A DNA stretch of 64,000 nt, from positions 62,001 to 126,000 of the forward strand of contig NZ_CANMKO010000007.1 of assembly GCF_947498515.1 (NCBI RefSeq). Direction: 5' to 3'. This document shows positions 27,775-29,152 of the stretch, in pieces. The stretch comes from an uncultured Pelagimonas sp. Its GTDB lineage: Bacteria; Pseudomonadota; Alphaproteobacteria; Rhodobacterales; Rhodobacteraceae. Every line of letters starts with the position of its first letter. Positions within the stretch are counted from its first letter, which is position 1. The notes under the pieces are model-generated. The model made no database searches, was not told where the DNA came from, and was given only the letters and a program-made list of their open reading frames with translations. Made by a program: the position numbers and the translations under genes.

Positions 27775-28416
27775 ATGACACGCACGCATATTCCTGGCAT
27801 CCTTGCCATGGCAGCCATTGTTCTGGCTTCCAACATTCTCGTCCAATTCCTGTTCGGCCAATGGCTGACTTGGGGCGCTTTTACCTATCCGCTCGCCTTT
27901 TTGGTCACTGACCTGATGAACCGCATCTATGGTGCCCAAGCCGCCCGCAAAGTTGTCTTTGTTGGTTTTATTGTCGGCGTCATCTGTTCGCTAATCGGCA
28001 CCCAGATCATGTTGCAGGGTGATGGCTACACCTTCCCCGCCGTGACATTGCGCATCGCTCTTGGCTCTGGTCTTGCCTTCTTGACTGCTCAATTGATGGA
28101 CGTTGCGATATTTGATCGTCTGCGTAGTGGCGCGTGGTGGCGTGCGCCGCTGGCCTCAACTTTGGTCGGCTCGTCGCTTGATACGGCGATTTTCTTCACT
28201 ATCGCATTCTCGTCTCAATTGGTGTTTTTGGAACCCGGCAATGACGTCAGCTGGGCCAACGAAGCGATCCCAATGTTGGGTGCGGGTCCGGTTGCGCCAC
28301 TTTGGGTGTCGCTGGCGGTGGCCGATTGGATGGTCAAACTGAGCCTTGCCCTGATCGCACTCATTCCGTTCCGAATGATCGTTTCGCGGGCAGGGGCCGT
28401 AAATACTACCGCTTGA
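27775..28416 (+). CDS. queuosine-precursor transporter family (YhhQ/VUT) membrane protein
   Basis: This 213-residue protein has about six membrane helices and the family signature FTYPLAFLVTDLMNRIYGAQAARKVVF near residues 40-66. Members import queuine or preQ0/preQ1 for tRNA modification. I looked for a preQ1 riboswitch in the 92-base gap upstream and found no convincing match. It is 123 bases upstream of the strong-ribosome-site mini-ORF described below. Confidence 0.88.
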   Translation: MTRTHIPGILAMAAIVLASNILVQFLFGQWLTWGAFTYPLAFLVTDLMNRIYGAQAARKVVFVGFIVGVICSLIGTQIMLQGDGYTFPAVTLRIALGSGLAFLTAQLMDVAIFDRLRSGAWWRAPLASTLVGSSLDTAIFFTIAFSSQLVFLEPGNDVSWANEAIPMLGAGPVAPLWVSLAVADWMVKLSLALIALIPFRMIVSRAGAVNTTA

Positions 28417-28439: not shown

Positions 28440-28492
28440 TTGCCATGTCATGGCAACATCATGTTGAGGCAACAAATTTGAAACACGTTTCA
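28440..28492 (+). promoter_or_regulatory. cluster of three inverted repeats
   Basis: Three dyads follow each other: 28440-28456 (arms TTGCCATG/CATGGCAA, one-base centre), 28462-28474 (TGTTG/CAACA) and 28479-28492 (TGAAAC/GTTTCA). They lie after the transporter stop and before the mini-ORF's ribosome site, where an operator/promoter for the following unit is expected. No T-tract marks them as terminators. Confidence 0.4.
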
Positions 28493-28539
28493 GATAGGCT
28501 GACCTCATCGCGTTTTAACAGCTGAAAGGAGGTGATCCA

Positions 28540-28596
28540 GTGATTAGAGAACCATTGGAGAAGGGTGTAGGGACAATTCGAGAGGCTGAGCTCTAG
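28540..28596 (+). CDS. 18-codon mini-ORF with an extreme Shine-Dalgarno sequence
   Basis: Bases 28524-28540 are the exact complement of the last 17 bases of a typical 16S rRNA (ending GGATCACCTCCTTTC). A GTG seven bases after the GGAGG core opens the 18-codon frame MIREPLEKGVGTIREAEL, ending TAG. A strong intrinsic terminator follows about 65 bases later, then arfB. It may be a leader peptide, a small protein, or a ribosome-binding decoy RNA. It is also conceivable that the match is a chance rRNA-like fragment. No family is recognised. Confidence 0.4.
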   Translation: MIREPLEKGVGTIREAEL

Positions 28597-28662
28597 GGTA
28601 ACTCCGGGCAACTGCCTATCAAATTGGCGAGCAGCCTAACCGGCCCCGCCTCCGTATTCTCG

Positions 28663-28693
28663 AAGGGTCGTCCCACGGGCGGCCCTTTTAGCT
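28663..28693 (+). terminator. intrinsic terminator between mini-ORF and arfB
   Basis: An 11-bp stem (28663-28673 with 28677-28687, two G-T pairs) has a three-base loop and is followed by TT and further T-rich sequence. It faces the plus strand, 39 bases before the arfB ATG. It either ends the upstream unit or acts as an attenuator of arfB. Confidence 0.75.
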
Positions 28694-28729
28694 TTCTAAT
28701 AAAAACCGCAGCCAATATCGGGGGATCTG

Positions 28730-29152
28730 ATGCTGCAAGTGAACGACGACATCGCCATCGAAGATTGGGAACTGACCGAACAATTTGTTCGTTCAAGCGG
28801 CCCCGGCGGGCAGAATGTCAACAAGGTCTCCACCGCTGTCGAGCTCCGTTTTGAGGCGGAACGCTCGCCCAATTTGCCTGCTCCAGTGAAAACACGATTG
28901 CGCAAATTGGCCGGTCGCCGTTGGACAAACGAAGGAGCGTTGATCCTTCAGGTTGAGGAAACCCGATCTCAGGCGCGTAACCGTGAAATCGCCCGCCAAC
29001 GGCTTGTCGAATTGATCCAGAAAGCGCTTCAAAAACCCAAACGACGCATTCCAACGCGCCCAACACTCGGGTCAAAAAAGCGTCGGCTGGCGGGCAAAAA
29101 AGCCCGTGGTGAGGTTAAAACACTGCGTGGCAAAGTCGACCCCACCGACTAG
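28730..29152 (+). CDS. arfB: alternative ribosome-rescue factor ArfB (YaeJ)
   Basis: A peptidyl-tRNA hydrolase that frees ribosomes stalled on mRNAs without a stop codon. The 140-residue protein has the catalytic GGQ at residues 26-28 in SSGPGGQNVNK. The basic C-terminal tail (from about residue 100, KPKRRIPTRPTLGSKKRR onward) inserts in the empty mRNA channel. The length rules out a full release factor. GGGGGAT precedes the ATG. An intrinsic terminator lies just upstream. Confidence 0.95.
   Translation: MLQVNDDIAIEDWELTEQFVRSSGPGGQNVNKVSTAVELRFEAERSPNLPAPVKTRLRKLAGRRWTNEGALILQVEETRSQARNREIARQRLVELIQKALQKPKRRIPTRPTLGSKKRRLAGKKARGEVKTLRGKVDPTD

Follow-up and report, generated by a model that had tools for sequence, protein, structure and literature searches.

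A CC2171-like unit with a complete complement of the 16S rRNA 3′ tail upstream of arfB in an uncultured Pelagimonas sp.

RESULTS AND DISCUSSION

Organization of the locus and sequence sets

The whole stretch of DNA analyzed here (64,000 nt, hereafter "the window") carries, between the genes for a Vut_1 family transporter (27775–28416) and the ribosome-rescue factor ArfB (28730–29152), a compact unit whose parts follow one another on the forward strand: a putative promoter region, an extended Shine-Dalgarno (SD) sequence, an 18-codon ORF with its start codon in a predicted hairpin, an anti-SD-like element, and a terminator-like hairpin. The downstream gene, also on the forward strand, had been named arfB in a preliminary description of the locus, and this was borne out by a Pfam RF-1 domain (3.4e−22) in its 140-aa product; it probably lies outside the functional unit. 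At 27 loci, same-strand upstream genes of one cluster, to which the Vut_1 gene belongs, ended approximately 55 nt (median) before the SD. The window yielded no Rfam match at the gathering threshold and no tRNA or tmRNA.

Relatives of the unit were compared in several sets; the family, as judged from named records that carry a unit of this type, is Rhodobacteraceae. The covariance model R1 was built from 40 sequences of the window's type (alignment A1, 40 of 42 references, with L054 and L181 omitted), and two further alignments, A2 (24 of 38 sequences) and A3 (13 of 16), were picked by hand. The 72 unfiltered family loci consisted of three loci from the same genus, 30 found by the core motif, and 39 found by R1 (40 were taken, and L295 gave no site). 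Many sequences were gathered via the SD motif itself, which is also contained in R1, the source of the 39 loci. Peptide and length patterns, rather than a tree, were the basis for assigning sequences to six groups (Rhodo, which is the window's own, Sphingo, MSH, MSS, Brady, and "other").

The unit contains a full-length complement of the 16S rRNA tail

The 17 nucleotides at positions 28524–28540 (GAAAGGAGGTGATCCAG) are Watson-Crick complementary to the 3′ tail of the 16S rRNA, in agreement with the preliminary description, and this extended SD runs into the GTG start codon by one base, the initial G. The tail was inferred from the same-genus genome G001, in which the 16S rRNA ends in ...GCGGCTGGATCACCTCCTTTCT, because the assembly of the window organism has no recognized 16S gene. 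The runner-up exact matches to the 16S complement on either strand of the 64-kb window were 11, 10, and 9 nt long, and the chance of a 17-nt match in 64 kb is approximately 4.5e−5 by simple arithmetic with equal base frequencies. Throughout the 4.63-Mb assembly (4,627,816 bases), this was the sole site at two or fewer mismatches, and the reversed control gave none. The predicted duplex with the 16S tail reached −29.7 kcal/mol at the unit's site, and the best duplex upstream of the first ATG or GTG of 47 window ORFs (≥200 aa) reached −15.8 kcal/mol.

Among the 72 unfiltered family loci, 33 of which had been found by the core motif or the window DNA, pairing with the 16S rRNA extended over all 17 ungapped positions (Watson-Crick or G·U) in 51 and over at least 16 positions in 66. 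The SD was nearly invariant across the groups, and when position −5 had changed, 22 of the 27 substitutions (86-sequence set) were A→G, which keeps the pair with a U of the 16S rRNA. Because 75.4% of Caulobacter protein-coding genes are reported, in the relevant passages of PMC4117421, to have no SD site, a gene with a full-length SD stands out. In the literature searched, the U-form of the extended SD appeared in one paper, as oligonucleotides complementary to 16S rRNA. The SD region also paired with the RNA's own body above the level of shuffled sequences (P ≤ 0.05) in 52 of the 148 sequences tested across all groups, but in none of the 19 Sphingo sequences.

The 18-codon ORF is probably translated

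The GTG frame of 18 codons that had been described at this locus was recovered at 28540–28596, where it encodes MIREPLEKGVGTIREAEL and stops at TAG. Loci not selected by peptide kept this length closely: exactly 18 codons were found at 64 of the 72 family loci, with TGA (32), TAG (25), or TAA (7) as the stop, and two other loci of this set, L057 and L060, had ORFs of 26 and 31 codons. In the peptide-filtered set, 80 of 86 ORFs had 18 codons, and the starts were GTG (83), ATG (2), and TTG (1). Because all three stop codons exchange freely at one position, translation is the best explanation, and the mini-ORF is probably translated. The peptide motif MSRxxLE[RK]GVGT... was retained in the family. 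Over codons 2–17, pN/pS was 0.71, about equal to that of the +1 frame (0.70); over codons 2–12, it was 0.57, compared with 0.77 and 0.87 off frame, so that any purifying selection on the peptide would be mild. Some codons were fixed at the third base as well (TTG GAG, ACA), as RNA pairing would predict, so a constraint on the RNA is mixed into the peptide signal.

Other groups encoded other peptides, unrecognizable from one group to the next (MSHGSAxRS..., KRCHLAGIAR, and MSHCH...). Their ORFs had mostly 18 codons in the MSHG types, 14 in the KRCHLAGIAR type, and 18–26 in the MSH types, although these lengths are partly built in, because the groups were defined by peptide and length patterns.

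These data bear on the reading that the unit is a plain small-protein gene, that is, a strongly initiated mini-mRNA whose product is the 18-aa peptide and whose RNA features merely tune synthesis. The fixed ORF length with exchanged stops, the motif retained in the family, and the pN/pS of codons 2–12 would all be expected of such a gene. However, the peptides lose all resemblance between groups while the SD stays nearly the same, and the third-base fixation in several codons is the pattern expected from RNA pairing. Over-long SDs, moreover, have been reported to be inhibitory: according to passages of PMC4611024, too long an SD inhibits translation, IF3 discriminates against it, and the first translocation is perhaps slowed. 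We therefore regard a plain small-protein gene as somewhat unlikely, although it is the strongest of the competing explanations.

The start codon lies in a hairpin that shares a strand with the 16S complement

In the fold of the window sequence, UCCAGUG (28536–28542) pairs with CAUUGGA (28553–28559), so that the hairpin at 28536–28559 encloses the start codon. The helix joins UCCAGUGUC with codons 4–7, and 96.7% of the corresponding cells paired in A1, far above slid controls. The start codon was paired with a probability of at least 0.5 at 66 of the 72 unfiltered loci, compared with 28 of 72 after one shuffle each. When only the segment from the SD to codon 11 was folded (86 sequences), the mean start-codon pairing was 0.90, compared with 0.32 when the ORF was shuffled, and the SD core GGAGGT was mostly open (0.34). 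Because the 5′ strand of the hairpin is the 3′ part of the 16S complement, codons 5–7 and the 16S tail compete for it.

Covariation in this hairpin was slight. In A1, four of the nine pairs were invariant and two had changed on both sides, a number of both-side changes that 75 of 500 shuffles reached; the paired cells and the covariation score exceeded those of all 500 shuffles. In A2, the start-hairpin signal was not significant. Start structure was even stronger in Brady than in the window's group and moderate in MSH; start pairing was hardly higher than in shuffles in Sphingo and no higher in MSS and "other." Fold stability was unremarkable for the whole RNA (z = −1.77) and for its 5′ part (z = −1.14).

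Promoter, anti-SD-like element, and 3′ hairpin

The putative promoter region (28470–28505) was located from relatives: 56 of 85 had a TTGAC in the 70 nt upstream, in agreement with the unit having its own promoter, and a strict promoter scan found no consensus sigma-70 promoter at the window's unit. In many relatives, conservation extended to the spacer that separates TTGACA from the presumed −10 element (e.g., ACACAAAATCTGTG in L160, L184, and L106). This spacer is an imperfect CACA...TGTG dyad, as if bound by a regulator, and CACA.{3,6}TGTG was present in 25 of 85 sequences.

Downstream of the ORF, the anti-SD-like element CGCCTCC (28647–28653) pairs with GGAGGTG (28528–28534) in the full-length minimum free energy fold of the window RNA, which also retains the start hairpin. 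Because the core at 28528–28534 is paired in that fold, an open SD core would be a feature of the nascent RNA and not of the folded full-length RNA. The motif C[ACG][CT]CTCC followed the ORF at 57 of the 72 unfiltered family loci. Within 45 nt before the terminator, it was found in 67 of 81 window-group sequences, compared with a mean of 3.4 and a maximum of 9 in shuffles, and CTAAC was found in 65 of the 81. Other groups carried different SD-complementary stretches at different places.

A helix between the early ORF and the pre-terminator segment was also considered as a universal element, using the 182 sequences that had a recognized terminator and a fitting length; the rest were dropped. 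Overall, codons 2–6 paired better with their own pre-terminator segment (−8.48) than with permuted ones (−6.48, standard deviation 0.15), and this held within MSH, MSS, and "other" as well. The candidate was rejected as universal: within the window's group, the pairing was no better than when permuted (−6.68 versus −6.91), and own and permuted values were equal in Sphingo and in Brady.

Where the preliminary description had placed a strong terminator, a terminator-like hairpin of 11 bp, including two G·U pairs, with the 3-nt loop CAC was seen on inspection at 28663–28687, with TTTT at 28686–28689, and it corresponds to the aligned 3′ hairpin in A1; a strict terminator scan reported none. RNAalifold recovered the terminator pairs and a 3-pair stem within the SD from A2, and one long helix with mostly invariant pairs from A3.

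Relationship to the CC2171 family and distribution

Positions 1–159 of the Rfam model RF01867 (CC2171) aligned with window positions 28516–28686, that is, over the full length of the model, with 32 bits and an E-value of 3.1e−5. This value is below the 75-bit gathering score; the match is collinear and includes both the SD block and the 3′ hairpin. Like this Caulobacter sRNA, the unit consists of a CAACA-like leader, GAAAGGAGGUGAUCCAGUG, a variable middle, and a GC-rich 3′ hairpin, in that order. In contrast, its ORF, its start hairpin, and its CACCTCC element are different, and the middle could hardly be aligned. The unit is related to the CC2171 family but is divergent and scores below its threshold.

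RF01867 matched 61 of 289 genomes of the class at an E-value of ≤1e−3 and reached the gathering cut-off in nine of them; among 14 control genomes, it matched Caulobacter vibrioides only. The model of the window's own type, R1, gave matches in 140 of 148 family genomes at ≤1e−3 and in 126 at ≤1e−10 (counted by hand), with no match in the remaining eight. Terminators or highly diverged units may account for the 14 weak R1 matches (>1e−10) and for the many second matches of approximately 30 bits. The mini-ORF and the 3′ hairpin, on whose conservation the preliminary description had in part made its proposal depend, were retained in relatives, as was the ribosome site.

The core pattern occurred in 64 of 149 family genomes, in one copy each (reversed control, none), and the window's own genome had one CC2171-like match. 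Across the class, the pattern was present in 67 of 385 genomes, with two copies in G014 only. A sample by phylum gave 66 of 398 genomes, comprising 66 of 135 Alphaproteobacteria and none of 263 others; with the pattern shortened by one base, it gave 30 of 200 genomes, comprising 29 of 51 Alphaproteobacteria and 1 of 149 others (both divisions made by hand). Alphaproteobacteria often carry the core, which hardly occurs in the other classes sampled. No match was found in plasmids or phages at the sensitivity used. Homology between the window's type and the units of other groups is suggested by the shared core, the order of the parts, and the single copy; on these grounds the units would be orthologous, although convergence is possible.

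Rfam describes CC2171 as a small RNA and gives no function, and our literature search found neither a description of a function for a CC2171-like RNA nor a paper with both CC2171 and Caulobacter. One covarying pair was added for the family according to passages of PMC11701678. Two previously predicted ncRNAs are reported to be translated in passages of PMC4117421, from which CC2171 is not identifiable as one of the two. Meanwhile, the Mesorhizobium candidate MH_s33 was assigned to RF01867 (PMC5596092), and its expression is implied by the statement, in the same passages, that all of the 35 candidates except MH_s6 had RNA-seq products.

That assignment and the Rfam label favor a trans-acting sRNA, in which the C-rich CCTAACCGGCCCCACCTCC would serve as an anti-SD seed for target mRNAs, with the ORF and the SD being secondary. 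The frequency of C[ACG][CT]CTCC and CTAAC in the window's group is also consistent with a seed. However, the seed motif is a feature of that group, and the SD-complementary stretches of other groups lie elsewhere and have other sequences. A trans-acting sRNA of this kind is, in our judgment, unlikely.

Adjacency to arfB is specific to the family

The ArfB motif was sought 120–900 nt downstream of 85 of the 86 sequences of the window's type, one having been dropped for a short flank. It was present on the same strand in 66; of the 19 sequences with no motif within 900 nt, four (L095, L113, L120, and L278) had one at 1.1–1.2 kb. In 61 of 64 cases, fewer than 130 nt separated the T run from the arfB start that was chosen. 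At the arfB starts of relatives, an SD-like motif was present in just 20 of 65. In the flanks searched, no same-strand ArfB motif was found near the similar units of other alphaproteobacterial groups, and the only ArfB motifs outside the window's group were on the opposite strand, in L093 and L139. The recurrent neighbors in those groups fall in other gene clusters. The arfB adjacency is family-specific.

In 17 of 65 relatives, the arfB ATG was preceded at 6–7 nt by a −10-like hexamer, TANNNT, compared with no more than three relatives at any other spacing from 0 to 39, and the window's own arfB had none at the 6–7 nt spacing. This enrichment suggests that, in part of the family, arfB has leaderless transcripts from its own promoter.

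The preliminary description had raised the possibility that the unit is an attenuator of arfB. In such a leader, the behavior of a ribosome on the mini-ORF would determine whether transcription continues past the terminator into arfB. The frequent same-strand adjacency at short distance fits this idea, and a uORF attenuator that senses translation inhibition has been described, in passages of PMC12218461, for a DUF1127 gene of Sinorhizobium meliloti. The idea is weakened, however, because the adjacency is family-specific, with no same-strand ArfB motif beside the similar units of other groups or, within the window's own type, beside 19 of 85, and because some arfB genes seem to be leaderless with their own promoter, although the window's own arfB lacks the −10-like signal. 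Furthermore, no clear antiterminator was found on inspection. The neighborhood of the unit and arfB is real, but a causal link is doubtful, and we judge attenuation of arfB to be more unlikely still than action in trans. The last alternative, a coincidence or relic in which an ordinary strong SD has acquired chance features, would suit the modest overall fold z-scores, but it is largely refuted by the retention of the unit in 126 to 140 of the 148 family genomes and by the single genomic occurrence, and we give it hardly any credence.

Proposed function

The anatomy of the unit is well supported, whereas its function is what we infer from that anatomy. With a confidence that stops somewhat short of even, we favor an autonomous mini-mRNA or dual-function small RNA of approximately 170 nt, with ends placed from the sequence, that would capture 30S subunits by strand displacement, separately from arfB. 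In the nascent RNA, the hairpin would hold the start codon, and the SD core would be open. A 30S subunit could then dock by its 16S tail on the SD core as a toehold, and the pairing would extend through UCCAG, displace codons 5–7, and free the start. The initiation that follows would probably be slow, given reports that over-long SD duplexes impede both initiation and early translocation. Were no ribosome to arrive, the 3′ CACCUCC-like element would fold back on the SD core and close the RNA. The state of the RNA, together with the amount of peptide, would in this way report the availability of ribosomes or of initiation, and the unit may thus be a reporter of ribosome availability. Candidate outputs are the freed anti-SD element acting in trans, sequestration of 30S subunits (a sponge), or the peptide; a leader-type peptide and a ribosome-titrating RNA, both proposed at the outset, are possible.

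A more specific form of this proposal, which we put forward tentatively as a possibility, is that of a usually single-copy, class-wide RNA switch of the Alphaproteobacteria whose ligand would be the free 16S 3′ tail in the 30S subunit, with the toehold opening the start and ribosome loading gating the anti-SD-like element. If this is true, the switch would give the cell an intrinsic sensor, or buffer, of free ribosomes.

Several described systems share parts of this arrangement. In the S. meliloti attenuator (passages of PMC12218461), a short ORF is translated, its ribosome site is able to pair with early codons, and the leader senses how efficiently translation proceeds; however, the target of that leader is the gene that follows in the same transcript, whereas the present unit is closed by a hairpin of its own and has neighbors that vary between groups. 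Extended SD–anti-SD initiation in Staphylococcus aureus, as presented in passages of PMC13009471, likewise involves an SD duplex extended toward the start, but with a few extra pairs in many mRNAs, in contrast to the whole tail in one gene here. The small RNAs rnTrpL/peTrpL (PMC10117765) and Pos19 (PMC5036791) also have short ORFs; the likeness is by description, and a full 16S complement is not mentioned in the passages concerned. The present analysis shows that CC2171-like RNAs occur in most sampled family genomes, where they score below the Rfam cut-off, and that they carry an ORF that is probably translated. Their near-invariant part is the complement of the entire 16S tail, which interlocks with the hairpin of the start codon. 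Should the RNA respond to the ribosome supply, it would provide a testable route to understanding how alphaproteobacteria monitor free 30S subunits.

Variant units

Two kinds of variant were observed among the sequences collected. In L070, L163, and L086, the ORF behind the extended SD is longer (56, 59, and 57 aa, respectively) and has a hydrophobic, signal-peptide-like start; these are possibly ordinary genes that share the extended SD. The Bradyrhizobium-type units (L133, L143, L147, L150, L168, L187, and L192) have a 14-codon ORF encoding MSxxKRCHLAGIAR, in which UCACCUC, able to pair with the SD, overlaps CUCGCUGG. The latter can pair with the later CCAGCGAG, so that, by inspection, two mutually exclusive helices could form.
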